From: Bolinopsis microptera
Lineage: Eukaryota > Ctenophora > Tentaculata > Lobata > Bolinopsidae
Assembly: GCF_026151205.1 (NCBI RefSeq)
Contig: NC_087084.1
Span: forward strand, 14,276,235 to 14,340,234
DNA: 64,000 nt
Direction of reading: 5' to 3'
Positions within the stretch are counted from its first letter, which is position 1. Each line of letters begins with the position of its first letter. The position numbers and the translations under genes are program-made. The notes beneath the pieces were generated by a model that saw only the letters and a program-made list of their open reading frames with translations, was not told the origin of the DNA and did not search any database. Shown piece after piece: positions 12,394 through 64,000 of the stretch.

Positions 12394-13425
12394 CCACGTG
12401 ACCCTGTACCAGTCACGTGACCCTGTACCAGTCACGTGACCCTGTACCAGTCACGTGACCCTGTACCAGTCACGTGACCCTGTACCAGTCACGTGACCCT
12501 GTACCAGTCACGTGACCCTATACCAGTCACGTGACCCTGTACCAGTCACGTGACCCTGTACCAGTCACGTGACCCTATACCAGTCACGTGGCCCTATACC
12601 AGTCACGTGACCCATACCAGTCACGTGACCCTATACCAGTCACGTGACCCTATACCAGTCACGTGACCCTGTACCAGTCACGTGACCCTGTACCAGTCAC
12701 GTGACCCATACCAGTCACGTGACCCTATACCAGACACGTGACCCTGTACCAGTCACGTGACCCATACCAGTCACGTGACCCATACCAGTCACGTGACCCT
12801 GGACCAGTCACGTGACCCTATACCAGTCACGTGACCCTGTACCAGTCACGTGACCCTGTACCAGACACGTGACCCTATACCAGACACGTGACCCTGTACC
12901 AGTCACGTGACCCTGTACCAGTCACGTGACCCATACCAGTCACGTGACCCATACCAGACACGTGACCCATACCAGACACGTGACCCATACCAGTCACGTG
13001 ACCCTGTACCAGTCACGTGACCCATACCAGTCACGTGACCCTGTACCAGTCACGTGACCCATACCAGTCACGTGACCCTGTACCAGTCACGTGACCCATA
13101 CCAGTCACGTGACCCTGTACCAGTCACGTGACCCATACCAGTCACGTGACCCTGGACCAGTCACGTGACCCATACCAGTCACGTGACCCTGTACCAGTCA
13201 TGTGGCCCTGTACCAGTCACGTGATCCTATACCAGACACGTGACCCATACCAGTCACGTGACCCATACCAGTCACGTGACCCTGTACCAGTCACGTGACC
13301 CTGTACCAGTCACGTGACCCTATACCAGTCACGTGACCCATACCAGTCACGTGACCCTATACCAGTCACGTGACCCATACCAGTCACGTGACCCTGTACC
13401 AGACACGTGGCCTATACCAGCCACT
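12394..13425. repeat. 18-19-bp E-box satellite (about 55 copies)
   Basis: The unit is about cacgtgaccctgtaccagt. Almost every copy contains the palindrome CACGTG, usually as tCACGTGa. Variants have accca, accctata or accctgga spacers. The local flanks are not duplicated, unlike the 20-bp CRE satellite elsewhere in this window. Confidence 0.97.
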
Positions 13426-33303: not shown

Positions 33304-34658
33304 GAGGAGCTGTGAGGGGCACTGTGGTGTGGGTCTTAGAGACTAGGAGACTAGGAGAGCTGTGCTGGTTACCAGGGTTTCAGAGTCTGTCGTCCCTACT
33401 GTGTTCTTTTAGCTCTCGACCCTAGCTAAGCCTGGTAGTGAAGGTATTGAACAGGACAATTCACATATGTATGAAAAAGTATCACAATTAGCAGAAATAC
33501 AGGATGGTCGATGTGATAGAACACAATATCTAAACCACGTCAACAGAGCGATCAATCCTGACTAAGTGATCACGTGTCAAATATAACAATTTTAAGGGCT
33601 ACCGTGCCAAAAATTCTATTGTATCAAAAATAACTGAAAACCTAAAAAATACAAAAATCTGAGCTACTCCCATCTTAAATATCAAGAAGTCCACATATCA
33701 CCGAGTACAATACATTCTAAAGCTGTAATAGTTCCCTCCCTCGCCAGGTCGGTACGTCGTTCCATGATGGTGATGTGGGGTCCGCAACGTATAATAATGT
33801 ACGCTGTGTACATGTGGTGTGTTGCTAGGTAACCTGTACATGATCACGTGGTTACCTGTACATGGTCACGTGTGTTGCTGGGTTGTATCGTCAGGTTTGG
33901 GTGTACATTCGGTGTGGTGGTATGATTATCAAGGTTAGAGTTTTATTTTGAATTAGAGTTAATCGAGCAATTTCCAATAGTAGAGTTTAGACAATAATTA
34001 TTGATTGATGACTCATTCGTGGCTGAACATTTGACTGATCACTGAGACTGAAGATTTTTTCTAGAGGTTGAATAATGCTGATTGCATCGGTGATTGCTTG
34101 ACAGCCCTTTGATGAGCGAATTCGAATAGAATTATTTTGCTCTGAATTACCTCACAGTAAGAGATACTGTTGTAATTCAGAGTGGTGCATCTTCAATGGA
34201 CGCCATTAGATGCCCGTCTCTGTTTCAGTTGACAAAAATAATTATTCTTTAATTCTTTGAGAAGGACGTAAGAAATCTGTACTATTTGGAGCTGAAGAAA
34301 CTGCTAGAGAAGATGTGGAAGCGATTGCTTCAGGATGTTTAGAAATTTGTTCAATATTCGAATTTTCCGACAAATTTTGTTTTTTTAAGCATCACTATCG
34401 CTATCATTTAGTTTCAGTTCTTGCAAACGATAAAATCGAAAAGGCGATTATTTTAAAGAAAGAGAACATAGTCACATAGTCACAAAAATCATCAAAAACC
34501 GCATCACCAATCTCAACTTTAATTAAAAAACAATGGTAACAGTCCATAACCACAGTATCAGTTCAGAACATTAGAAATAGAGTGATTCTCTATGTGATTC
34601 TCTATGTGATTACCAGGTGATTACCAGGTGATTACCATGTGATTACCTCCCCACAGTA
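33304..34658. promoter_or_regulatory. Intergenic region between the GALNT start and the GPCR stop
   Basis: No coding frame. 33815-33880 holds tgttgctaggtaacctgtac (X-box-like) and several CACGTG boxes (near 33847 and 33868). These could serve the GALNT promoter, whose ATG is at 33303. Short direct repeats (ctatgtgattaccaggtgat type) lie at 34585-34645. Confidence 0.35.
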
Positions 34659-37156
34659 TCAGTTCAGAACATTAGAAATAGACACATTCTCTATGACCCC
34701 GCTCCTCGAATTAGACCTCCTCCTATTATACGTCACCAGAGTCTCCGACACAGCCTTCTCCCTACAAAACCACACGCCACAACACAGGATCTTAGCGTTG
34801 TGGTGAAGCGTGTACACCAGCGGATCAAACACCAGGTTCAAGTAGAACATAACAAAGGTGAAGTACCTGACGTAGATATCAACAGTAACCCCTGTAACGC
34901 CAGGGTGGATGAGGACCTGGGTTACCAGCTGGGGAACCAGGAGATGAAATACAGGCTGACTAGCAGGCTGATGTTTATGAAGATCCGCTTCCTGCTCGGA
35001 GTCTTGGTGGTGGACATGTTGTTGTGGGATTGGGTGCTTTTCATTCTGGTGCGGATTTCTTTGAGGATTTTAACGTACAGACAGGCTGTTACCTGAAGCA
35101 GAGTGGAGTATATTACTGATATTACTAATATTACTAATATTAGTAATATTAGTTCGGTTTTTTAATAATGATATGACAACGGAGATTTACTAAGTATGTT
35201 CTGAGATGAGCACTTGCTGTCTTATGAAGTAAAATTGAATTACAAAGATTTTGACATCCCTTATAATTGGAGAATCAGGTGTTGTCTCCAATGGCAGTAA
35301 GTGACGAAATTGTAAACTTACGAGAAAAGGCAGGACGAAGAAAATGGCATTAGTCGCCAATATGTAAGTTTAAACTTACGAGAAAAGGTAGGACGAAGAA
35401 AATGGCATTAGTCGCCAATATGTAAGTTTAAACTTACGAGAAAAGGTAGGACGAAGAAGATGGCATTAGTCGCCAATATGTAAGTTTAAACTCACGAGAA
35501 AAGGTAGGACGAAGAAGATGGCATTAGTCGCCAATATGTAAGTTTCCCCAAAATCCGTCGTCGAAAGAGAGCATCTACCAGCTAGGATATAACTTTTATC
35601 ACTTTTAATTGTTTAAAATAAAGACCTTACAGTCTTCATGATAAAGGACTTTATTACTTCAAAGCATCTTAATTTAATTATGCGAAAAGGATCCGAACTA
35701 AAAGATTGAATTGCATAGAATTATTGGTCACCAAAGCCTGAAAATTGCATTTATGTCAATATTTGTATTAATCTCTGAAGGGTTACCTCTGTTATCAAAT
35801 CTTAAGTCGATGACGTCAGAGAAGGCTGACAGGCAGGATGTTATCACTATGAAAGCAATACATGTCACCCAAACGAATATGACCTGAAATTTGCATGCTG
35901 TGCTAAACACAGTTTGAAACATTTCCTTGTGATTATAATTTCTTAATTAATCAGTCAATAAATGTTTGGAAAATTACTTACTACGGATATTCTTTCTGGA
36001 TATGTTCCATTGAATCCTAAGATAAACACCCCCCTCAGGCCTGAATATCTCCCCACAAACCATGATAACACTCATCCTAAAGGTCATCTTGCTCCTGTAG
36101 TTGTGAGGTGATATAATAGCCACGTGGTGTGAAGTCATGACACGTGGTGTGACGTCATGACACGTGGTGTGACGTCATGACACGTGGTGTGACGTCATGA
36201 CACGTGGTGTGACGTCATGACACGTGGTATGACGTCATGACACGTGGTGTGACGTCATGACACGTGGTGTGGCGTCATGACACGTGGTGTGACGTCATGA
36301 CACGTGGTGTGACGTCATGACACGTGGTGTGAACACCCCCCCCCCCCCCCCCCCTCAGGCCCGAATATCTCCCCACAAACCATAATAACACTCATCCTAA
36401 AGGTCATCTTGCTCCTGTAGTTGTGAGGCGATATAATGGCAGCTGCTCTGTTAACCGTTATCATTGCTACTGTGAGGGAGGAGGCGTAGGAGAGCCCAGG
36501 GATCAACAAGGCAACAACCTGATGATTAGGGTAATTAGGGTTATTAGGGTAATTAGGGGGATTAGTGAGGCGACACATCTGTGGCAGGGAGAATTAGAGT
36601 TTGTTAGTATTGCGTGAAGGTTGTGAATTTTAAAATCATTAGAATTATCAAGTATCAACAGTCTGTGTCCCGGAAGTGCATATATTTACAACTTGACAAT
36701 TTTGAAGAGACCATACCTTACCTTGTTGCTAGGTAACCTGTACATACCTTGCACAGTCCTTCCAGTAGAGGATCGAGCTGGAAGAAGCCAGTAACAACCA
36801 TGGCGGGACCCCTGAGGGACACCCCAACTATGGCTAACAGTAGGTCAAACACTGCTAGGTTTAGAACCAGGACATTGAACGAACCTGGGGAGGGGTAGGT
36901 TATACAAGGGGAGGGGTTTTAATGTTTAATTCTTTAGCTTTTTGGATTTTCCGTTTTTTGATATATTTTTGATATATTACTAGGTTTTGTACTAACTGTT
37001 TTTATATTTATAAATTAAAAGGACCTATTTAAAGAAACACAAACCTTCTCGTTTAAGACTCCTTGTAACAATAACAATAACAAGTAAGTTGAGCACGACT
37101 GCAGCGGCAGATAGGGATATCAAAATCCATCCCGCCACTATACCAATGTTGTTCAT
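34659..37156 (-). CDS. Class A (rhodopsin-like) G-protein coupled receptor, six exons, with a frame break in the last exon
   Basis: Exons: 37045-37156, 36748-36884, 36381-36518, 35787-35883, 35496-35581, 34659-35092. The first five joins are in phase. Landmarks: TM1 VVLNLLVIVIVT; TM2 LNLAVFDLLLAIVG (Asp 2.50); LEGLCK with the TM3 Cys; TM3 end MITVNRAAAIISP (NRA for DRY); TM4 VWVTCIAFIVITSC; a second-loop Cys (GRCSLSTTD); TM5 FFVLPFL; TM6 FISWFPS (CWxP variant); TM7 NLVFDPLVY (NPxxY variant). The receptor is about 334 aa if the frame is kept. At about 34922-34931 the frame runs into TAA; one missing base there would restore TM6-loop-TM7. A 59-nt intron with the same TG|GTAACC donor is possible but would delete the outer half of TM6. 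Ligand unknown. Confidence 0.82.
35313..35545 (-). repeat. 58-bp tandem repeat of the GPCR TM5 exon end and its donor, four copies
   Basis: Each unit encodes LATNAIFFVLPFL and then GTAAGT (GTGAGT in the copy used by the exon ending at 35496). The other three copies lie downstream in intron 5, each with an intact donor. They have no acceptor of their own. Confidence 0.92.
36025..36440. repeat. CRE/E-box 20-bp satellite, locus A, flanked by a 96/108-bp direct duplication
   Basis: The satellite (about 10.6 copies of GACACGTGGTGTGACGTCAT) fills 36121-36332. On both sides is the same sequence: 36025-36120 and 36333-36440 (the second is longer through a C homopolymer). The duplicated DNA is the 3' part of GPCR exon 3 with its GTTTGT donor and the first bases of intron 3. 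The copy at 36333-36440 belongs to the intact exon; the copy at 36025-36120 is a partial pseudo-exon. Confidence 0.93.
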
Positions 37157-37181
37157 GTTTATCTGTGTGCGTTAGTGCAAA

Positions 37182-39231
37182 TGTTTAGAAATATGTGAAG
37201 AATAATGTTAAGGATGCAGTTCTTCTGGCTTTATCAGAGGGGAAAATCACAGAAAAAGACAAGAAACTCATTACTGGACTTAATGAAAATAATAACCAAA
37301 TGCATGCACATGTATTCAAACCAGTAGTCCCTTGTGTGTACCCTTTATTTAAGCTGCATAAATTAAGTCCACAACAGATTGAGGGTAAAATAGTTCCCCC
37401 TACCAGGCTTGTCCATGCCACTAAGGAAGGCCCCCTTTACAGGCTAGAAAAGTGGGTTAGCCCATACCTAACAGATGTAAGTAGGATTTATTGCCAACAG
37501 GAGTTTCTCCTGGATACACCAGACCTTCTCAGTAACATAAAAAACCTTAATGAATCTGCAGACATGTCAAAATATAGCACCATCAACTTGTTTACTTTAG
37601 ACGTGATCAGTCTGTATCCAAGCATAAAACCTGAAATAGCTATGTCTGCATTGGAACATGCCCTGAACGGTAGTACTATGATTGATAAACGAAAGGCTAT
37701 TCTGAAAACATTCACGGAGACTATCTTCACAAACTCCTTTGTCACTTTTCAAGAAAATGTGTACACAGGCAAAAAGGGTATCCCAACTGGAAATTGTATT
37801 TCGCGTCAAGTCGCTGATATCATGCTTCATTGGGTGCTATTCATCAACATCTGGCCTGAAATGATACAGCTATGGAGTCTTATTTTATTCTGGCGACGCT
37901 TCATCGACGATGTCTTTGGAATTTGGAAGGGCTCCAGGAGGCAATTTGATCTTTTTGTGTCGAAACTAAATGAAGCCGCAAAACGATTTGGAATTCAGTT
38001 CGGTGATTGTCAGTTTGGCAAATCAGTTAACTACTTGGATGTAGAACCCTCCCTGGGGGAGAACAACAACATCGACTACAGACTATTTAAGAAAGAGACT
38101 GATGCCAGGCTTTACCTTAATACTGATAGTTTCCACCCAAACCACGTCTTTAAATCAGTAGTATTCTCACAGATGATCCGAGTGATCAAGCGAAATTCGC
38201 AGGATCACACCTGTGTGGAGGACCTGGAGGAACTTAAAGAAGACCTAATGAAAAGTGGACACAAGGAGGGGACCTTAACGGAAACAGAGCCTGAAGCAGT
38301 CTTGAGGTCAATAGAACACGATTTGTATGAGAGGGAAGAAAAGAAGCCAATCACTGACAAAGTTGTCTTTTCAGTGAAATTTTTCAAAGAGGTCACTGAA
38401 CTTAGGAAGTTGGTACACTCTACTAGTGAGGACATCAAACAATTATGCGGAGACGTACAGATATTGTTTGCACTACGTAAACAGCCATCTATAGGCAACA
38501 CAGTAGTGCGCAATAGAAAACTCAGTTCGTGCTCCGAAACGGATTCTTTCACCGTAAGCCAAAACTGTGGGGGGAGAGGCTGTGCAACCTGTCCCCAACT
38601 GTTCAACTCCAACGAAGTTATCACTGTCAATGGTTTGGATTTAACTCTGGATTTCCGGTTGACATGTAAGGACAGCAATATAATTTATGTCGCCCAATGC
38701 CAAATTTGTAATAAACTTCCCCAGAGCCTAAAAGACGATACCTATTTCGGCCAAACGGTTTCTCCATTTCATATCAGAATGAATGGACACAGAAACAAGT
38801 TTAAAATTGATAATGAATTGTCATTTGAGAAGTCGGCACTTTCCATGCATTGTTTTCTAGCGCATAAATCTGATTTCACTATGGGAGTTTTTAAATTAGG
38901 TGTAGTAAGAAAAGTCCGACCAACAGAACTTGATAGAGAAGAGAGCATTCTTATTTCAAAATTTAGAACTAATATTTTTGGGTTAAATAGGATTGTAGTT
39001 ACTCGCTGAATAATCTGTTATGCTCTGTTGTCCATTCTACCTAGCACATTGAGCTCTTTAGTAAAGTTTCAGATTAAAATCTGTTTTGAATTTTCAAGTT
39101 GTTAACTTTTAAATTGCTTTCATTAGTCTAACCTAATTTTATTTTTATAGGCTAGAGATGTAAATATACGAAGAATTCACCTATATTTGTGCTGTCTTAC
39201 TATGTGTCCAAACCAAATTGTTTAGAAATAT
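37182..39231 (+). mobile_element. Penelope-like element, 5'-truncated, with 13-bp target duplication
   Basis: The insertion occupies 37195-39218, between two copies of tgtttagaaatat (37182-37194 and 39219-39231). The open frame starts at the very first base after the left duplication, which shows the element was truncated at its 5' end during insertion. It lies head to head with the GPCR, whose ATG is only 38 bp away, and interrupts a 'gtgcaaatatttagata' minisatellite that continues on the right side. About 210 bp of 3' UTR follow the stop. Confidence 0.88.
37195..39009 (+). CDS. Penelope-like reverse transcriptase with GIY-YIG endonuclease (N-terminally truncated)
   Basis: About 604 codons without a stop, with no initiating ATG of its own (upstream frame closed by TAG). 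RT motifs: PLFKLHKLS, FTLDVISLYPSI, GIPTGNCIS, RRFIDDVFGIW (catalytic DD), LDVEPSLG. A Cys-rich segment CGGRGCATCP at residues about 461-470 follows, then the GIY-YIG nuclease: NIIYVAQCQICN, YFGQTVSPFHIRMNGHR, and a downstream Glu (LDREES). This domain order (RT, zinc-like knuckle, GIY-YIG) is that of Penelope/Neptune-group elements. Family members are usually near 800 aa, so roughly 200 N-terminal residues are missing. The visible frame is intact, pointing to a recent insertion. Confidence 0.93.
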   Translation: MKNNVKDAVLLALSEGKITEKDKKLITGLNENNNQMHAHVFKPVVPCVYPLFKLHKLSPQQIEGKIVPPTRLVHATKEGPLYRLEKWVSPYLTDVSRIYCQQEFLLDTPDLLSNIKNLNESADMSKYSTINLFTLDVISLYPSIKPEIAMSALEHALNGSTMIDKRKAILKTFTETIFTNSFVTFQENVYTGKKGIPTGNCISRQVADIMLHWVLFINIWPEMIQLWSLILFWRRFIDDVFGIWKGSRRQFDLFVSKLNEAAKRFGIQFGDCQFGKSVNYLDVEPSLGENNNIDYRLFKKETDARLYLNTDSFHPNHVFKSVVFSQMIRVIKRNSQDHTCVEDLEELKEDLMKSGHKEGTLTETEPEAVLRSIEHDLYEREEKKPITDKVVFSVKFFKEVTELRKLVHSTSEDIKQLCGDVQILFALRKQPSIGNTVVRNRKLSSCSETDSFTVSQNCGGRGCATCPQLFNSNEVITVNGLDLTLDFRLTCKDSNIIYVAQCQICNKLPQSLKDDTYFGQTVSPFHIRMNGHRNKFKIDNELSFEKSALSMHCFLAHKSDFTMGVFKLGVVRKVRPTELDREESILISKFRTNIFGLNRIVVTR

Positions 39232-39490
39232 AGTGCAAATATAGTGCAAATGTTTAGATATAGTGCAAATGTTTAGATATAGTGCAAATATAGAGATATT
39301 GTGCAAATATAGTGCAAATGTTTAGATATAGTGCAAATGTTTAGATATAGTGCAAATATAGAGATATAGTGCAAATATTTAGATATAGTGCAAAAAGTGC
39401 AAATATAGTGCAAATATAGTGCAAATATTTAGATATAGTGCAAATATTTAGATATAGAGCAAATATTTAGATATAGAGCAAATATAGAGT
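39232..39490. repeat. Degenerate 'agtgcaaatatttagata' minisatellite
   Basis: Mixtures of agtgcaaat and gtttagatat of about 11-19 bp. It was split by the Penelope-like insertion: the sequence left of the element (37175-37194) belongs to the same array. Confidence 0.85.
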
Positions 39491-39728
39491 ACGTAGCAAT
39501 CAAAATACACATTAATACACAAATATAAAACTCGGGATAAATTCCAAATCGTCATCGTAACACATGCATGTGGTGTGTTGCTGGGTAACCTGTGCACGAA
39601 CACATGCATTAGACATTAAAAATGGGCCGGTAATTCAACTGTAGATTTACAAACAATCGTACGTGCTGGGAATCGTAACTGCTGGGAACTAACAATGCAT
39701 GGTCATTTAAAAACTCGCAGCAAAACTA

Positions 39729-39890
39729 ATCTTCAGGGGGGCTAAATGAATAAGATGGCGTGGACACTGGACAGGGCACGTGGTGTGACGTCATGACACG
39801 TGGTGTGACGTCATGACACGTGGTGTGACGTCATCTTCAGGGGGGCTAAATGAATAAGATGGCGTGGGCCGTGGACACTGGACAGGGCAT
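39729..39890. repeat. CRE/E-box 20-bp satellite, locus B, flanked by a 50/57-bp direct duplication
   Basis: About 2.75 satellite units (39779-39833) lie between two copies of a local sequence that begins atcttcaggggggctaaatg and ends acactggacagggca. The copies are 39729-39778 and about 39834-39890, differing by a 7-bp indel (gccgtgg). Confidence 0.9.
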
Positions 39891-40245
39891 AGCAGTTATG
39901 CTGAATTAATAACGTACTGAAATAATAACGTACTGTGTGAATCGAGTTACAGGATAAATAATGGCGAAATTTGATTTGGACCAGATGGTCCCTCATTGTT
40001 ATCAAGGATTCTAGAAAAAATAACCTCGATGTTTTGGCATGGAAGTTGATCGTACGCTGAAGTGAAGAAGGAACTTAGGGAGTGATCTGCTGGAGTGATT
40101 TGCTGGAACAAATAAACTTTAAAAACACTTTGCATTCATATCAGGACAGAGGGCAACATTGCAGCGAAGAGGACAGAGGGCAACATTGCAGCGAAGAGGA
40201 CAGATGTATAATATATATATTAGAGGGTATTTATGAAGGCTGATA

Positions 40246-42526
40246 AATCACGTGATAAATTAGGAGTCTGTTGTTATATCATTATACTACATGGACACGT
40301 TCATTTGAGTTTGAGGACATTGGTAAATATAAGAGACCCTATTAAAGGGCACAGTGTAGTTGACTTTGTCACACTATTGAATAACTTAAACCCTTGATGG
40401 TTAGGATAATCGTCTCATCCTCTAGGCTAACTTTGTCACATAACGATATCTTAATCAGGTGATAAGATATCGCTTAAATACGGCCGGCACGGAAATGGTT
40501 ACATTGTCACACTATAAACATGTGACGGAGTAAATATGGACCCCTTGCTGCCGTTTTTGACCAAATTTTTGAGTGTCCAGTTGATTGGATGGGTACATAT
40601 GACCATTACCTACATATTTGACGACTTTTTTCGTTATATGGTGCATTCAGGTTTACTCTGTCACACATTAAAGAAAATATGTGATGAATGTTTAGGGCAC
40701 CCTGATAAGCAATGCTGAGTAGTGTAAGTTTATTTGATGGCCTGGAAGTGCTGGGAATTGTTATTATATCATATAGTCGTAAGGAATTAAAACACAGAAG
40801 GCACAACCAAGCTTATTTTGTCACATAATCTTGATGATATCTGAACATGTGTGAAATTGAACAAATAATGATATACCAGCTTAAACCCCTTATATTATAC
40901 GTACTATGGATCAAACAACACTGCTAGTACCATGCACCAGTCACATAAATCATTATCAGGTGGTAATATGTTAACAGTGTCACAATTAAACTACCGCTAC
41001 ATGGTCAAAAATAGGGTAATTTCGTCACAAAAAAGTATTATAACTCTGTTAGCTCCTTGCTGGCAAAATAACTAGTTTATCGAAATTTTTTTGATGATAA
41101 GGTTACATAGTATTCTAATAGAGGTATAGTTCTTCAAAATAGGGGCAAGACATGTTTACTTTGTCACATCAGTTATTATAAGAGTTAGGTAATCGTCATC
41201 AGATTAAAAGATATTTTTCGTAGTTTGGATCGATTAATACTTTAATATACCTGTAATAAATCCTATGCCAATTTTAACACACTATCTTGATACTGTTGGG
41301 GCAGAAAAAGTTAATTTTGTCACATTTTCAATGTCTTTGACAAATTAATCTAAATTTTTTAAATTGAGCTCTTATGTTCTGGACAATATTCTTCCAATCG
41401 TTTCTGAAAGAATATTGAATTCTAATAGAGTTATAGATCTTCAAAATAGGGGCAAGACATGTTTAATTTGTCACATCAGTTATTATAAGAGTTAGGTAAT
41501 CTCCATCACATTAACATATATTTTTTTGTAGTTTGGATTGATTTATATAGGTAATAAAGCAGCCTATGCTAATTTTTACACACTATCTTGAAATTTTTGG
41601 GGCATGAAAAGTTAATTTTGTCACATTTTTAGTGACTTTGACAAATTTAACCTAAAATTGTTAAACTTAAGCTCTGATGATCTGGACAATATTCTAATAG
41701 AGGTATAGAATATAGATCTTCAAAATAGGGGCAAGACATGTTTACTTTGTCACATCAGTTATTATAAGAGTTATTATTAGAGACTATTTCATTCTATAAT
41801 CATTGTTTTTAATCTATTTACGATTTCGTATAATTTTTTGTGACAATGTAAACATCAACTGATCTTAACTTGCATCAACTACATTGTCATCATATAAAAT
41901 TTTCCCGCCTTTCAAACCAAAATCAGATATAAATAATTCGCCCAAAATTTTATATTTAATATATTGTGACAGAATTAACCTCATTTCCCAATAACCAAGT
42001 GCCTGTATTAGCTAACTATTCAAAACAACATATTTTAGGGCTATGATTGGTAGAGCAACCATCAAATAATGAGTAGAAAGGGTTTTTAGGACACCTCACA
42101 GTAGAATAGAGGTATGGTATCATGAGTGTGACAAAGTTACCTAAATATTGCCTTGTAACCGTTCGATCCGTGCCCATTAACCAATGTTGTATCATAATTG
42201 TTAGATTGACCTAATTTACTATATTTCAGACCAAGGAATGATAATTAGACAAATGCAGTTAACTAAGTCACACAAAATGTGACATTTGAAACATTATAGT
42301 GCCTTACAACAATAGATTTTCTTTCTGAGCGGTGCATATGGGAGTATGGGTTACGTGGCTAATGTTCAGAACTTCTGAACGTGCTAGGTTAATAGATGTC
42401 AAAATTAAGCCACTATCGTCAAAAACGCTATTATTTTTGTTTACCAATATCCTCAAACTCAAATGAACGTGTCCACATATAATATTAGAGGACCGGAAAG
42501 GCAAACTCCTAATTTGTTATCAGTAC
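40246..42526. mobile_element. 2.28-kb inverted-repeat-bounded block rich in TTTGTCACA motifs
   Basis: A 36-bp segment starting tggacacgttcatttgagtt (40292-40327) recurs inverted at 42440-42475 with one mismatch. Outside it, tgata(ac)aaattaggag is also inverted at both ends (40254-40266 / about 42506-42522). Inside, TTTGTCACA-like motifs occur about 13 times on the plus strand up to about 41760, then in inverted orientation (TGTGACAA) from about 41840 on. A roughly 300-bp imperfect repeat (aggggcaagacatgttta...) appears near 41146, 41450 and 41727. There is no coding frame. It is probably a non-autonomous DNA transposon of unknown superfamily. Confidence 0.6.
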
Positions 42527-42747
42527 AAAGTATTGCCTCCCAGGGAGACACCACGTGTCATGACGTCACACCACGTGTCATGACGTCACACCACGTGTCA
42601 TGACGTCACACCACGTGTCATGACGTCACACCACGTGTCATGACGTCACACCACGTGTCATGACGTCACACCACGTGTCATGACGTCACACAAACTCCTA
42701 ATTTGTTATCAGTACCACGGAACAACAGAAGGTGCATTGCCTCCCAG
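42502..42747. repeat. CRE/E-box 20-bp satellite, locus C (opposite orientation), flanked by direct duplication
   Basis: About 7 units (42548-42690) in inverse orientation lie between 42502-42543 and 42691-42747. Both flanks contain caaactcctaatttgttatc plus agtac, and later attgcctcccag; they differ by an internal indel. The duplicated DNA includes the right terminus of the inverted-repeat block at 40246-42526. Confidence 0.88.
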
Positions 42748-42989
42748 CCAGTAGTTATCGATTCTTATAGGGAGATGAGGTGTAGGGGAGATAATCAAAC
42801 CCCAGAATCACTGACACGTGCCAGCTCACCAGGATTCACATCTAGACAGACAGGTGCCGAAACAATAATATTCATTATAAGTAAGTATTAGTAAGTACCC
42901 TACAATTCCACCTAAATGAAGCAATCCGCCAATAGCAATATGGACGGTAGAGGCTGTTCTGATAGAGAGAGATTAGGAGATTTGTAGGA

Positions 42990-44818
42990 GCATCCGTTAA
43001 AGTTCCTAACATTAGTCAATAACGGAGGGGATCTGTGACGGTGGGAGTATGTGATTAACATTAGTCAATAACAGAGGGGATCTGTAACGTTGGGAGTATG
43101 TGATTAACATTAGTCAATAACGGAGGGGATCTGTAACGTTGGGAGTATGTGATTAACATTAGTCAATAACGGAGGGGATCTGTAACGTTGGGAGTATGTG
43201 ATTAACATTAGTCAATAACGGAGGGGATCTGTGACGGTGGGAGTATGTGATTAACATTAGTCAATAACAGAGGGGATCTGTGACGGTGGGAGTATGTGAT
43301 TAACATTAGTCAATAACAGAGGGGATCTGTGACGGTGGGAGTATGTGATTAACATTAGTTAATAACGGAGGGGATCTGTGACGGTGGGAGTATGTGATTA
43401 ACATTAGTCAATAACAGAGGGGATCTGTAACGGTGGGAGTATGTGATTAACATTAGTCAATAACAGAGGGGATCTGTGACGGTGGGAGTATGTGATTAAC
43501 ATTAGTCAATAACAGAGGGGATCTGTGACGGTAGGAGTATGTGATTAACATTAGTCAATAACGGAGGGGATCTGTGACGGTAGGAGTATGTGATTAACAT
43601 TAGTCAATAACAGAGGGGATCTGTGACGGTGGGAGTATGTGATTAACATTAGTCAATAACAGAGGGGATCTGTAACGTTGGGAGTATGTGATTAACATTA
43701 GTCAATAACAGAGGGGATCTGTGACGGTGGGAGTATGTGATTAACATTAGTCAATAACAGAGGGGATCTGTGACGGTGGGAGTATGTGATTAACATTAGT
43801 CAATAACAGAGGGGATCTGTGACGGTGGGAGTATGTGATTAACATTAGTCAATAACAGAGGGGATCTGTAACGTTGGGAGTATGTGATTAACATTAGTCA
43901 ATAACAGAGGGGATCTGTGACGTTGGGAGTATGTGATTAACATTAGTCAATAACAGAGGGGATCTGTGACGGTGGGAGTATGTGATTAACATTAGTCAAT
44001 AACAGAGGGGATCTGTGACGGTGGGAGTATGTGATTAACATTAGTCAATAACGGAGGGGATCTGTGACGTTGGGAGTATGTGATTAACATTAGTCAATAA
44101 CAGAGGGGATCTGTGACGGTGGGAGTATGTGATTAACATTAGTCAATAACAGAGGGGATCTGTGACGGTGGGAGTATGTGATTAACATTAGTCAATAGCG
44201 GAGGGATCTGTAACGGTGGGAGTATGTGATTAACATTAGTCAATAACAGAGGGGATCTGTGACGGTGGGAGTATGTGATTAACATTAGTCAATAACAGAG
44301 GGGATCTGTGACGGTGGGAGTATGAGATTAACATTAGTCAATAGCGGAGGGATCTGTAACGGTGGGAGTATGTGATTAACATTAGTCAATAACGGAGGGG
44401 ATCTGTGACGGTAGGAGTATGTGATTAACATTAGTCAATAACAGAGGGGATCTGTGACGGTGGGAGTATGTGATTAACATTAGTCAATAACGGAGGGGAT
44501 CTGTAACGGTGGGAGTATGTGATTAACATTAGTCAATAACAGAGGGGATCTGTGACGGTGGGAGTATGTGATTAACATTAGTCAATAACAGAGGGGATCT
44601 GTGACGGTGGGAGTATGTGATTAACATTAGTCAATAACAGAGGGGATCTGTGACGGTGGGAGTATGTGATTAACATTAGTCAATAACGGAGGGGATCTGT
44701 GACGGTGGGAGTATGTGATTAACATTAGTCAATAACAGAGGGGATCTGTGACGGTGGGAGTATGTGATTAACATTAGTCAATAACAGAGGGGATCTGTGA
44801 CGGTGGGAGTATGTGATT
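42990..44818. repeat. 49-bp satellite (about 37 copies)
   Basis: The unit begins gtgattaacattagtcaata and ends gacggtgggagtat. Variants (aacRgagg, gacggt/aacgtt) recur in blocks. The copies are highly similar, so the array is young or homogenised. No coding potential. Confidence 0.97.
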
Positions 44819-46840
44819 ATTGACGGTTCACGTGTCCAGTGGTAATATTATCATATCAATATTAATATTTGACGTAAGCACGCATACAGAAGTCCACTTT
44901 TACCAACATATCTGTAACGTACCTTAACGTAACTGTAACAAATTACTACACCCAACTCTACTACGACCAACAGGCAACGAGTGAACCAGGGTGGAATAGT
45001 AATACTTCCACGTTAAAAGAGCAACTTTATAATTCTACTTGCCAAACAGTAGGTATCTATTAAATAAGAACAACTTTGTAATAATTCTACCTGTTAATGC
45101 AGCTGCTCACCTCTCTACGTCACAGTCTGATACTAAGATTGTACTTCTCCCTGAGATCTGATATCAAAGCAACAAGCTCTCAGAAAGCACAATTATAGAG
45201 GAACTAATGACATAAGAGGTCGTTCAGAAGAAATGGAGTAGAACAGGTGCTTACCTTGGTTCTATAATGGCCCTATATTCAGCGGCTACCATCTGACGTG
45301 ATTTTAACATGCTTATAACAAACTTTCTAAAAATACAACCCGGTTCGTTTCAAGATTAACGATGGTAAGAGACAAATATTGTAGTAAAAAGTAATGAGCG
45401 TCTCATCTCTGGTAGTTCACCACATAGAAATCTAAAACTTCAATCCCATAAACCTATCAGAACATTTCAATGAAATGCAAGTTTTGTCTCTCGTGGACCA
45501 CCTGTTAAGAATAGAAACTTCTACACAACAGCGACAACACACAAATTACCTGCCGAGCTCTGACTACTATACTGTACTATTGATACTGCTCTGAGTAGTA
45601 TCAATAACAAAACACCCTTCAGTGCAAGCATCCAACATGATCAGTAGCACAAAGGTAGCCATGCTCTGCTACGCCCTATAAACCTATACTAGGTAGGCAT
45701 ACTCTGCTACGCCCTATACTAGGCCCTGTAGAGTGTAGCTCCACTAGGTCCTGTTCTTTAACAAAGCTACAAATAAACAAAATGTGGTTCCGAGACTCGG
45801 GTGTAAAAGAGGGTGGGTTACAAGTTAAGAGAACAAACCAGGGCGTCACCCTCACCCCTCGCCCCTCGCCCCCTCAGACCTCACCCACAGCTCCCTAGTC
45901 AGCTGTCACCTGCTGTTACCAGGGTACAGTGAAGTTGTGGAGCACAAATAGAATAGTTTATATAAGTGTTCCGGAGAGTAGTTGTACGCGGGAGATGATG
46001 CGTGCAGGGACAGGTGTTATCTTGTTCACAGGATAATGGTTCGGGGGAGATTGGTGGCCGGGAGAATTATCGGGTTAGTTCAGTGGGGGTCGGTGCAGCT
46101 GTTTGGTGGGTATAGGGTAGGCAACAGTAAACACTGACAAAGTGTTTTGATTGATCATTGAGATTTAGGGAAGGTTAGTAAAAAGATATGATGGAAAAGT
46201 AGTCATGATTTTAAATATTTAAATGCATACAAATTTTGTTAAAAGTAATAAAGCGACAAATATGTTGTTCGGTAAAAATTAGTAAAGTGAAATGAACTAA
46301 TGTTTTGTGTACAAAGATCAGACCTTTTCAATAATATGGAACTGTAAGTCAGTAAGTGCAGTGTGTAGAGCTATGAACCTTCAGAATCCATGCATGATCA
46401 CATAGTTCTTTAAAAAGGTCAAGAGCCGGGATACCAATTGGATTTATTTTCAGCCAAACGCAATTTTAAATGCTTTTAAGTGGTCAGTAGTCAGTGGAAA
46501 ACAAGGGCCGCTCAACTTAGCGTTGATTAGGTAGTCTTATCTTATTAAAATTTATTGTTAGAATCGATAGTGATCGTACGTGGTAACGTCTAAAACATTA
46601 AACTGGACACCACGACACCTCCAACATCTAAACAAAAACCATCGGAGCAGCTCATAATTACTTTTTGATCTCATCAAAGTACTCGAGCTCTGCCACCTGT
46701 TACTGACTGCTGATGATCCGGCGCAACTGTGAGTCTCAGTTATATTGACCCACTCTCCCAAACCAGGTTAACAGGGTGGGGGTGCCAACTGCCAAGTAGC
46801 TAAGTAGCTGTTAGTTGCTGCATATCGCTACATATCGCTA
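44819..46840. other. Intergenic, no supportable gene
   Basis: Non-coding sequence with a short duplication at 45660-45725 (gctctgctacgccctata type). A possible tiny minus-strand exon with a GTAAGC donor near 45252 cannot be supported alone. Confidence 0.4.
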
Positions 46841-47455
46841 CATTGTTAGGTGTCACCATGCTGGTAAGTCAAGTACGGTCACCGTGAATGTGTCCCTGAA
46901 ATACGTCATGACACGTGGTGTGACGTCATGACACGTGGTGTGACGTCATGACACGTGGTGTGACGTCATGACACGTGGTGTGACGTCATGACACGTGGTG
47001 TGACGTCATGACACGTGGTGTGACGTCATGACACGTGGTGTGACGTCATGACACGTGGTGTGACGTCATGACACGTGGTGTGACGTCATGACATGTGGTG
47101 TGACGTCATGACACGTGGTGTGACGTCATGACATGTGGTGTGACGTCATGACACGTGGTGTGACGTCATGACACGTGGTGTGACGTCATGACACGTGGTG
47201 TGACGTCATGACACGTGGTGTGACGTCATGACATGTGGTGTGACGTCATGACACGTGGTGTGACGTCATGACATGTGGTGTGACGTCATGACACGTGGTG
47301 TGACGTCATGACACGTGGTGTGACGTCATGACACGTGGTGTGACGTCATGACACGTGGTGTGACGTCATGACACGTGGTGTGACGTCATGACATTGTTAG
47401 GTGTCACCGTGCTGGTAAGTCAAGTACGGTCACCCTGAATGTGTCCCTGAAGTAC
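46841..47455. repeat. CRE/E-box 20-bp satellite, locus D, flanked by a 64-bp direct duplication
   Basis: About 24 units of GACACGTGGTGTGACGTCAT (46905-47391) lie exactly between two 64-bp copies of local DNA: 46841-46904 and 47392-47455. These start cattgttaggtgtcacc and end tgtccctgaaRtac, with three mismatches between copies. This is the clearest of the four loci. Confidence 0.96.
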
Positions 47456-49194: not shown

Positions 49195-51196
49195 ACGTTA
49201 TTTATTATATCGAAACAGTTGTTATTTAAAGATATAATGTAAATTTTATGAGCTAACAGGATTTACATTTTATGACATATTTTCAATAGTCTGTTTTATG
49301 TTTTACAGTTTCAGCTTTGGTCTTCACGATTATATATAATATATATTCAATTTTGTTGTGATCTATGTCCCTGATGATTGATTGATGATTCATTCATAAA
49401 ACTCCGAGTTAGATAAATACATTTGCTTTGTACAAAATAACAAATTATATGCATCAAAATCAAATTGTCCTTATTATCGGAGACAATTAAAATAATAATC
49501 AATAATTTGATGGGGTTAACTGGTACGATTCCACAATTCGTATCGTGCGACAGAATAATCTTAACATGACTAAACTGCAAGGAACATTGAGGAGGATAAG
49601 TGATCTGAGAAACTGATTGGAGTTTTGAATTATCGCGACTGACTAAGTGATAATTTTATTAATGTAGTGTTATAATTATTGATTACTATAGTGTCATAAT
49701 TACTGGTAACTTGTATGAGGTTGCCCGTTACTAAGCAACGCTTTGTACGGCACACAATCAGGGACTGGACTATATAAATATTAAACGTGACACGTATAGA
49801 GGGAGATTAGCGGATTAAAGAATAATTTGAATTAAACGTGGATGAGTTAGTGATAATTCCATTATTATTAGCAGCTTTCATAGCAGCTGGTAGCCACTGG
49901 AAGCTAGCAGTTGTTTAAGAGTTGGTAATCTGTTTAAAATAACTTCGCATGGTCTCATGGCCACGCGATTGTGACGTCATGACACGTGGTGTGATTGCAG
50001 ATTTTCCAGTTATTAAATAAAAACCGCCCATTTAATTTAAAGAGGTCATTTAGTTGGAAAATTTAACAGTCGGGTAATTACCAATTAACGAGCGGAGACA
50101 ACCTACCAATTATCTTTCCTTAGCTTTTGGGATATCATAATATTATGGTTATTAAATAGCATTAAACAGGATAAAAGTTGATAAATGTGCATTTAGGAAG
50201 GTTCGACAGAATCAATTATCTCGAGTCTCGACCTGACCACCTGTTTTCATTTAAAGATTCTACTTTAGGACGATTCGCTTGGTTGGCAAATAATTAGATA
50301 GTCACAAATAAAACTCTGATTTCGTTATCTTCTAAAACAATGCAGCGAGAAACTGATAAAAATATTTTTGAAATATGTTGAAAACTTTGAACATAAAACG
50401 TTTGGGAACACAGTTTTTCTAATAAATATGCGGACTAGTTATTGGAAACAACTCTTAGTTTAAAATTCAACTGAAAGTTTTACTACGGCGCATATCATAA
50501 GCTTAATGGTGATAATTCAAAGCAATAATAAAGTTCGTAGAAGCATTTCAACTGTTCTGAGCATTTTTTAACGAACGGATGTAATAATCGTCAAAATGGC
50601 TCAGTTTGCTGATATAGATAACTGATTACTGACTAAGCTTATTAAGATAACTCCGACAGTCAGAACTTCTTTAAGAAAATCTGTGAAGAAATGATTGTAC
50701 AATATAGGAAAAATACTGGCGAGTGTCCGACAAGATGATGAGTTAGCTTGGCAACCTTTAGAGCCCTTTTTAAAATCAAAATCTTAAAATAGCAGCTGGT
50801 TAAAAATGTTCCAAAACCAATGCACACCTTGTTTATTAGTTTCTTTATGCGGGTGAAATATTAAAATATCTATTCGGCATATTCTGATTCAATAAATGTC
50901 CATCACATGCGACAATTAAGATACATTACATTTTAAACAAGGGAAAATAATTTCAAACTGATCAAAATTAGGTCACTGTTTGAGTAATTAATCTTTTTTT
51001 TTAAATGACCCACGTCACATGATATTTTCAAATGTAAAGATTGTCAATCTCTTTCACCTTAACAACACTATCAATGTTTACTAGTTCTGCGCGCGCGTCA
51101 CCATGGTGACACAGAAACTGCGTCACCATGACGACACACTTTGGCAGTCAGTGACGTCATGTTGATGTAGGATGACGTCACGTGATGAAACACTTT
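49195..51196. other. Intergenic; single CRE/E-box satellite unit at 49973-49995
   Basis: AT-rich without a gene. At 49973-49995 stands one isolated copy of the 20-bp satellite unit (gacgtcatgacacgtggtgt), with gattg on both sides. Near 51100-51185, cgtcaccatg and gtgacgtca motifs cluster upstream of the peptide gene's 3' end. Confidence 0.5.
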
Positions 51197-62135: not shown

Positions 62136-62832
62136 GTAGTACTCAAGTAGTAATCGATCGCATTGCTTGTGGTAGGCACCACGCCTCTACTTATCCCAAA
62201 ATGCCCTGGTCGTATCCAAACTCTCAGAGTTTTAGAGTTTAGAGGCAGTTCAGCTTCTGTTTACTGTTCTCCAGAAGAATTTGCGCGCATACCCACAGAG
62301 TCTGCAACCGTTGCTAAGGAACCTGCACTCTGCAACCCCTTCATCTGCCCTTATTAGGGGGGACTTACAATTCAATGCAGGTAATTGATACAACTTTACA
62401 TGAAAATCTGATGACATTGAGGGCTGCACCCCAGCCGCGAAAGGCTGGCCGCATACGGCATAAAGCTCGTCAATACTGACAGTTATTGATAACAATAGAA
62501 TCATGCAAAAAGCTACAAATTTAAAGGCCAACCATTCGTGGCCGGAGTAAGGCAGGCGTGCAATTAAACGATTTTATATGTGTTACTTATTTAAGCTCTG
62601 GTTAATTATTTAATTATATAAGCATGAAGACCTTATAGTCTTCTGTAAAGACTGCAATCACCTTCGGATTGCAGGTTGCATGTCTAGGTTTTTTCTTCCA
62701 TGTCGAGGCGGAAAAGGTGCAGGAGACCACCTACTCCACGATGGCATCTCATACAATACAATTTTTAAGCAGGTTAATTATATAACCACGGATAGGTTCG
62801 GTAATAGGCAGTACCAATCATTAAGTTAATTA
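62136..62832 (-). CDS. Intergenic; weak candidate secreted-protein exon at 62250-62531 (minus)
   Basis: From ATG 62531 the minus strand reads MAFKFVAFCMILLLSITVSI, then DELYAVCGQPFAAG, a plausible signal peptide. A possible donor follows (TTTTCAT|GTAAAG, about 62389). The open frame of 93 codons contains no known domain. It could be a first exon of a secreted protein or chance. The rest of this stretch holds nothing recognised. Confidence 0.2.
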
Positions 62833-62897
62833 CAGTGGCGTAACGTTGCCTGTTGGCGCCCCCACCCCTCCCCTTTTGGCCCTTCGTTACGCCACTG
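62833..62897. mobile_element. 65-bp hAT MITE
   Basis: The ends are CAGTGGCGTAACG and its exact inverted copy CGTTACGCCACTG. The perfect 8-bp target duplication gttaatta is at 62825-62832 and 62898-62905. The interior tgttggcgccccc matches the 262-bp element at 58432. It is extremely short for a mobile unit. Confidence 0.92.
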
Positions 62898-64000
62898 GTT
62901 AATTATATAACCACGGATAGGTCCGGTAATAGGAACCGTGCGGATATCTGTCCGGTAATAGACAGTACCAATCATCATTTCACAATAAAGTATTGTGGTC
63001 ATAGTAACACAATATTATGCGCATAATTACACAATATTATGCGCATCCTGTGTATTCAACACGCACAGTCTACGATATTTTGATACAAAGATAAACACCA
63101 GTAGTTAGACAAGAGCTCACAACCTTTTGAGGCCCTGCAAATCAATGATCTCAGTATACGTAACCCAGGAATCGTGGCCAGGAATCCTGAAGCCTCTGCA
63201 TGTTTGCATTGTGCATTCTTGTGGAATAGTCTAAAATCTAGACGTTGAAACGATCCCTAGTTTCATCCGCAGACAGTAAACTTTGCCTTTATCAGAACAA
63301 CTCATATCCGGTAAACTTATTTACATATCTTCAGTGGAACTTGGTGGCTTGGTACCGTTCAAAACATGAGATGATGATTGAGGAAGACTACATATTATCT
63401 TAACAAGGTTCAACTTAAAATGGAAATAGTTGAAAACTCTCACATGTTGAGGTGCTGCCAGAGGGCTAAGGAGGAACCAACGAAATGGCAATGAAAAAGC
63501 AAAGAACAGATCCTGATCTTTTATTCTGAATGCATCTCCCCCTTTCCACACTGCGTCAATCCCCCCTCTTATAAAGACTAACTATCTTCCTCCCCTCTCT
63601 TATATCATCTTTTATGGTATGGTCTAGCCTCAGGACTCATGCGAATGGGTGTACTTGGAAATCTGCATTAACAAGGGAACCCTGCAGTAGAAATTGTATA
63701 CCTACATGATCATTGATTACTGGTGATAAGTTCTTTAGTCGGTGCCACTAAATCACTCGCCGAGGGTTTTTAATTCGTTACAGAAGGGTCCTGAACATAA
63801 TATGAAAGTAACACCGATCGAATGTATTTTTTAATGTTTAGATGAGACCATTTCTTTTGGACCATTACCCAGAACTGTAAAAACCCAAGTCACTTGATAG
63901 CGCGCTGGCGAATGAATTAGTAAAAGCCTTCTCCAGCACCCACCAGTACCCACCATCACCCACCAGTACCCAATAACGCCCTCCAGTACCCACTAACGAC
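62898..64000. other. Intergenic; new minisatellite starts at the window edge
   Basis: A duplicated piece, ggttaattatataaccacgg, brackets the 65-bp MITE (62771 and 62897). acacaatattatgcgcat occurs twice at 63006-63045. From about 63935 a (ccaccagtac)-type 10-20-bp repeat begins and runs off the window. No gene is supportable. Confidence 0.4.

Follow-up and report, generated by a model that had tools for sequence, protein, structure and literature searches.

In the genome of the ctenophore Bolinopsis microptera, short arrays of a 20-bp satellite lie at many unrelated sites and are, at about half of the clusters examined, bordered on both sides by a long direct duplication of the local DNA. The pattern was studied starting from a window of 64,000 nucleotides (C13:14276235-14340234), and all loci were read from assembled sequence. 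In the notation used here, A is the satellite array, F the duplicated flank, and X and Y the outer flanks, so that a locus has the order X-F-A-F-Y; loci and contigs are cited by number. Two steps are evident from the structure of the loci, namely the insertion of satellite coupled to the duplication of F, and a later expansion. The explanation that we favour, with moderate confidence, is that satellite copies were inserted by the microhomology-guided repair of a break or fork, which also duplicated the flank of the break.

The satellite unit, GACACGTGGTGTGACGTCAT, contains overlapping palindromes and, as the original prediction for this DNA pointed out, the letters of a cyclic AMP response element (CRE) and of an E-box, which makes it a putative carrier of both motifs. 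On direct reading, the dinucleotide AG is absent from both strands of the consensus unit. In the window, whose G+C content (GC) ranges from 31 to 48% in 2-kb steps, all four arrays have an adjacent direct duplication of the flank. Array 1 (36121..36332, plus strand, 10.6 units) lies between copies at 36029..36120 and 36349..36440, which are identical at 88/92 positions. A C-run separates it from the right copy, which falls within a minus-strand open frame resembling a seven-transmembrane receptor (36315-36593 from stop to stop; Pfam 7tm_1, E 4.9e-4, under the curated cut-off). Further open frames resembling pieces of a rhodopsin-type receptor gene were noticed on the minus strand at 35974-36918, with array 1 among them. 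Array 2 (39777..39834, plus strand, 2.9 units) is bordered by 39731..39776 and 39835..39887, with 46 identical positions and a gap in which 7 bp of the right copy are missing from the left. Array 3 (42548..42691, 7.2 units) is in the inverse orientation, on the minus strand; its left copy (42503..42543) matches the right copy (42692..42747) at 40 positions with 1 mismatch, and lacks 15 bp of it in a gap. Array 4 (46903..47393, plus strand, 24.5 units) lies between 46843..46900 and 47394..47451, identical at 56/58 positions. The site of this last duplication reads CTG/GTAAGT, a strong 5′ splice-site-like match, and no exon was recognised there. The arrays and flank pairs thus stand at nearly the places first predicted and the flank lengths agree to about 16 bases, the earlier figure of 96/108 for array 1 having counted in the side with the C-run. 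The lone unit predicted near 49973 was recovered as a plus-strand match of 1.25 copies (49970..49994), without a flank duplication.

The assembly comprises 264,652,675 bases in 232 contigs, in which the exact unit occurs 352 times, the exact dimer 168 times and the exact trimer 72 times, while the reversed controls gave 0 in each case. In a mismatch-tolerant search, 40 of 196 candidate places were scored and the sample of loci is incomplete; 29 stretches and 20 shorter ones were examined beyond the window. The main test, which required a score of 13 or more and allowed gaps of up to 20, found F against the array on both sides in 31 of 62 clusters (5 clusters in the window). Inspection of single arrays added L031, L051 and L055, the last with a 159-bp stretch, including a 148-bp repeat, between F and the array. 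The total is hence 34/62 at best, and the expectation of a flank duplication at every array did not hold: such duplications are common, not universal. The 62 clusters exclude the higher-order arrays (L040-L043 and L047) and clusters that were shorter than 30 bp or had flanks of less than 60 bp (L066, for example), count the first two arrays of L039 once, via L070, and contain the paralogous pairs L052/L053, L057/L058, L059/L060 and L076/L077.

A flank test on these clusters, with controls, supports part of the original prediction, namely that insertion goes together with the duplication of long flanks and does so at many sites unrelated in sequence. Under one common threshold, 29/62 satellite clusters were positive (27 at a score of at least 18, plus L031 and L051 by the single-array tests), compared with 3/74 other tandem arrays drawn from the window and 29 loci (p 2e-9), the flank length tested being 300 for the clusters and 400 for these controls. 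Within the window, 24 other tandem arrays selected from the Tandem Repeats Finder list and tested identically to the satellite arrays yielded one adjacent duplication (at 34606, score 37.5). Mismatched flanks were positive in 2/1203 cases, both involving the L076/L077 paralogues, and a control of unchanged geometry, displaced by 900 bp, was positive in 5/80. Together with the other-array controls, these replaced random-position controls, which were unusable because they had landed in tandem arrays, with scores reaching 288 and 379.5.

The length of F ranges from 13 to 92 bp (median 51 in 31 rows, four of which have an F of 13 bp). Its identity ranges from perfect (47/47 in L054, 33/33 in L045) down to about 85% (L046, L069) and is lower when gaps are counted, as in window array 3 (40/56). 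Because identity varies in this way between loci, the insertion events seem to differ in age. The duplicated flanks differ from site to site, as the mismatched-flank control indicates and as had been predicted. Loci with F are found on nine chromosome-sized contigs (C1, C4, C5, C6 and C9-C13). When clusters spaced by more than 200 kb are considered, 29/33 sit in the outer 45% of chromosomes, a cut that was set after inspection. It was also observed that satellite loci are clustered toward the chromosome ends in the outer parts of C10, C13, C4 and C5.

The junctions between target and satellite were compared at 31 gap-free positions in 27 loci, leaving out L058, L076, L077 and the second L053 array (paralogues or repeats). 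In-register microhomology between target and satellite averages 2.10 nt, compared with 0.76 nt when the phase is permuted, and it amounts to at least 3 nt at 9/31 junctions; the observed mean was reached in 0/5000 permutations. The phases at which arrays begin and end are scattered, the 27 starts falling on 14 of the 20 positions (with a maximum of 6 at one) and the 27 ends on 18, and both satellite strands are represented among the inserts. Among inserts for which F is clear, that of L054 is the smallest, at 1.75 units. Unit consensuses of individual loci depart from the master chiefly at the first two bases, but the loci had been identified through nearly exact matches, so that divergent families would be missed. 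Neither the fixed ends nor the constant short target duplication of a DNA transposon was found, since the phases are scattered and F varies in length. The combination of flank duplication, insert and junction microhomology that characterises filler capture or template switching is present, as is the microhomology of target with repeat known from interstitial telomeric sequences. Taken together, the microhomology and the variable length of F suggest that breaks were processed by alternative end joining or by template switching, which supports the break-repair mechanism raised by the original prediction.

According to the favoured mechanism, where a break is staggered or a fork has stalled, an end of F would pair over as many as 7 nt with satellite located elsewhere, and the annealed end would copy about two or more units or capture a fragment. 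Once this end rejoined at the opposite side of F, two copies of F would result. Template switching, and the filling-in of a staggered break together with capture, would give the identical product and are indistinguishable here. Inserts would later expand by slippage or unequal exchange. At some loci F lies in or beside frames that encode conserved domains, suggesting that the ancestral site carried a single F.

Several observations weigh against this explanation. Microhomology is absent at 5/31 junctions, and extra bases are found at one junction in 8/27 loci and at the other in 9/27. By the tests used, 28/62 clusters lack F (L074, with 14/17 bp, is borderline), among them long arrays of 18 and 46 units (L033, L035) as well as short ones (L073, L075, L079). 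A single favoured donor is not predicted by ordinary repair, and both the choice of this satellite as donor and the frequent presence of an exon edge in F are unaccounted for by the favoured mechanism. In addition, a search with the joined flanks of 21 of the 26 prepared loci, in which 40/787 and 40/622 candidates were scored, found no empty paralogue. The matches obtained were the query loci themselves and known relatives (L057/L058). The joined flanks of window array 3 and of L061 matched the ends of dispersed repeats, the L061 repeat covering the first 14 bp of F. Other matches were an L068 paralogue, with a spacing of F as if arrays were present there too, and a diverged relative of L053, located inside the L052 stretch and itself bearing degenerate units.

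Other explanations place the duplication at a different step or ascribe it to a different agent. Satellite transcripts could have been reverse-transcribed at a nicked target by an enzyme of the long interspersed nuclear element (LINE) or Penelope type acting in trans, F being then a target-site duplication. Target-primed synthesis likewise fits duplications of variable length and junction microhomology, and a Penelope-like element with eight near-identical copies lies between arrays 1 and 2. However, where target duplications of Penelope-like copies were found they measure 11-13 bp, far below the median F, and the matches listed for the sequences next to arrays showed no shared body or tail and no constant end, so that this route is considered unlikely. 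A dedicated sequence-specific activity, in which the satellite is a non-coding element mobilised by an enzyme whose cuts have a long stagger and fall preferentially at exon edges, would account for the fact that a single satellite family stands out from other tandem arrays, for the non-random targets, whose mean 5′ splice-site-like score exceeds all 200 random draws (see below), and for the overlapping palindromes of the unit. The lack of fixed ends and, by eye, of a target consensus, the very variable length of F and the junction microhomology all argue against such an activity, which we regard as rather unlikely. A broader version of this idea is speculative and unlikely in our estimate: the 20-bp repeat, rich in palindromes, would be a mobile satellite without a protein of its own, spread by an activity that is either dedicated to it or hijacked. 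This activity would open the ends of exons with a stagger near 50 bp, duplicating splice sites and small exons and seeding repeated exons, new introns and satellites of higher order.

It could also be proposed that the arrays came first and that the flank was duplicated later, by unequal exchange or by local tandem duplication around a break-prone array. Expansion of the type (F-A)n is clear at L045, L051, L057 and at 690-728 kb of C5, and in L047 an exon-like spacer of 209 bp was duplicated along with the arrays. Duplication of an array-bearing segment nevertheless predicts an array at the outer edge (F-A-F-A or A-F-A-F), whereas single-array loci have F at both ends, and a separate route would be needed to carry the array to all sites. 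The order F-A-F is unlike the product of a tandem duplication of a pre-existing array and supports insertion coupled to duplication, which leaves the arrays-first scenario quite improbable. An assembly artefact is highly improbable, given that the copies of F differ by substitutions and by gaps of 7 and 15 bp, that the loci are spread over nine chromosome-sized contigs and that the pattern is rare at other tandem arrays.

There is evidence that the duplicated flanks are biased toward exon edges, although this is evidence for a bias and not a census. The best 5′ splice-site-like match in 31 F (L058, L077 and the second L053 array omitted; L031, L051 and L055 added) has a mean of 5.74 bits, compared with 3.50 (standard deviation 0.52) for same-length windows from the same loci, and 0/200 draws reach it; the matrices were not trained on the B. 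microptera genome. Strong 5′ matches number 8, where 2.8 are expected, and the top single draw likewise has 8. The effect at 3′ splice sites is weak (p 0.025 for the mean; 3 strong sites against 2.4). The GC of F is 43.7%, compared with 38.5% for the flanks, and is higher in 22/31 (p 0.010). Ten open frames abutting F were compared with Pfam, and four exceeded the curated cut-off, matching GIPC1_GH1 (L046), Ets (L053, where the stop codon of the frame falls inside F), DIX (L063) and Ras (L078). Four others matched weakly, under the cut-off, namely FERM_M (L034), 7tm_1 (window array 1), CAP (L045) and MOR2-PAG1_C (L055), and the remaining two had no Pfam match; in a second set of eight peptides, seven had no Pfam match and one had a weak match. 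In L034, L063 and L078 the Pfam profile runs well beyond the matched part, as expected at the end of an exon, but the peptides had been cut beforehand at the putative donor and the end point is therefore not independent. Selection may contribute, insertions that duplicate a splice site being perhaps tolerated where those in exon interiors are not. An orientation bias of arrays at 5′ relative to 3′ splice sites (8/11 versus 0/3, p 0.055) comes from a count made by eye and involves too few cases to be relied on.

Growth after insertion is seen at several loci (L045, L051, L057 and L068), where three to six arrays alternate with F in the form (F-A)n F, with identical array ends and lengths that differ by whole units. 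For example, the arrays of L057 have 2.15, 3.15 and 4.15 units, and in the L068 paralogue two of three distances between F differ, by 57 and 60 bp. In L057, a 48-nt segment that is exon-like in our own reading is present seven times between satellite arrays. On C5, at about 690-728 kb (L040-L043), a spacer of 80 bp and 2-4 satellite units (40-80 bp) form a higher-order satellite in separate blocks, mostly as a 141-bp repeat (about 692-726 kb). A donor-like GAG/GTGAGT was noticed on the minus strand of this spacer. In L047 (2017-4170), the 209-bp spacer that is duplicated along with long arrays appears by eye to be one whole cysteine-rich exon with its splice sites. Given exon-edge-like flanks, small exons may be copied by the same process, as in L057, and higher-order satellites may be built, as on C5.

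The arrival of a satellite at new sites is usually inferred without breakpoints. Here, a single animal genome offers satellite insertions of apparently different ages in which both junctions can be read. Satellite dispersal, duplications by break repair and the insertion of telomeric repeats at breaks are already known. The original prediction knew of no described element of this kind; this should be qualified, since close precedents exist (PMC2246262, PMC7215372 and PMC4202315, as far as the available parts of these sources go). In mammals, telomeric repeats are inserted at double-strand breaks, sometimes with duplication of the flank, and in the available portions of the horse data duplication alone accounts for 3/66 interstitial telomeric sequences and deletion with addition and duplication for 2/66 (PMC2246262, PMC7215372). 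By comparison, the repeat described here is non-telomeric, with no obvious source in telomerase, and F of 13-92 bp is found at about half of the clusters; TTAGGG-type repeats are present in the window, separate from the 20-bp satellite. Intron gain by staggered breaks in Daphnia similarly places insertions between direct repeats in exons in repeated bouts, but the exon-intron repeats are 4-12 bp and the accessible part of the report describes no single family of inserts (PMC4202315). Introners, as far as the excerpted source goes, are likewise many related inserts in genes, some families having target duplications, but these are of 3-9 bp (PMC9860276); the insert here has no splice signals of its own, and a unit without AG cannot provide an acceptor. 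Repair-mediated duplications in vertebrates also arise locally from breaks and include exons and splice sites, but in the sections available they capture mostly nearby sequence (PMC2671141) and not one dispersed satellite. The short satellite arrays of oyster Helentrons are also dispersed across the genome, but are carried by a mobile element according to the parts of the source at hand (PMC7492417), and an element body is not seen here. The loop-anchor motif of Mnemiopsis has two CpGs, as does the unit, in the part of the report available (PMC12221973); no link between the two is claimed. Three exact strings of the unit had no match, and no report of such a pattern in ctenophores was found, in a literature of partial coverage.

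An all-against-all comparison of flanks from L031-L059 and from part of the window, made after masking, showed no common element body beside the arrays among the matches listed. Among these, L032 and L055 have the 148-bp repeat in common, and the rest are mostly similar to tandem or simple repeats and involve few loci. Direct flank pairs also surround other inserts, with 9 found in 194,929 bases. The satellite therefore looks like a favoured donor within a more general process. At 62772-62933 of the window, a 37-bp direct duplication flanks a short palindromic repeat, and the insert partly matches downstream sequence, as in a local template switch. A large minisatellite of 19 bp, with CACGTG in its unit, lies at 12395-13424 and has no flank duplication.

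Lying at 37193-39220, between array 1 and array 2, the Penelope-like element is truncated at its 5′ end and has an open frame of 606 codons, for which there is no Pfam match, the name being our own reading of the protein. Eight more copies with 98-100% identity over 581-604 residues suggest that the family was recently active. Target duplications of 11, 12 and 13 bp were found at three of four copies examined, and none was seen at the ends of the fourth, L081. The Penelope-like enzyme was rejected as the inserting agent because these lengths contrast with the median F of 51 bp, although the F of 13 bp in four rows would fit. The copy in the window is bordered by direct repeats of 11 bp (37184-37194 and 39221-39231), and the sequence beside it has expanded into a tandem array at 39223-39487.

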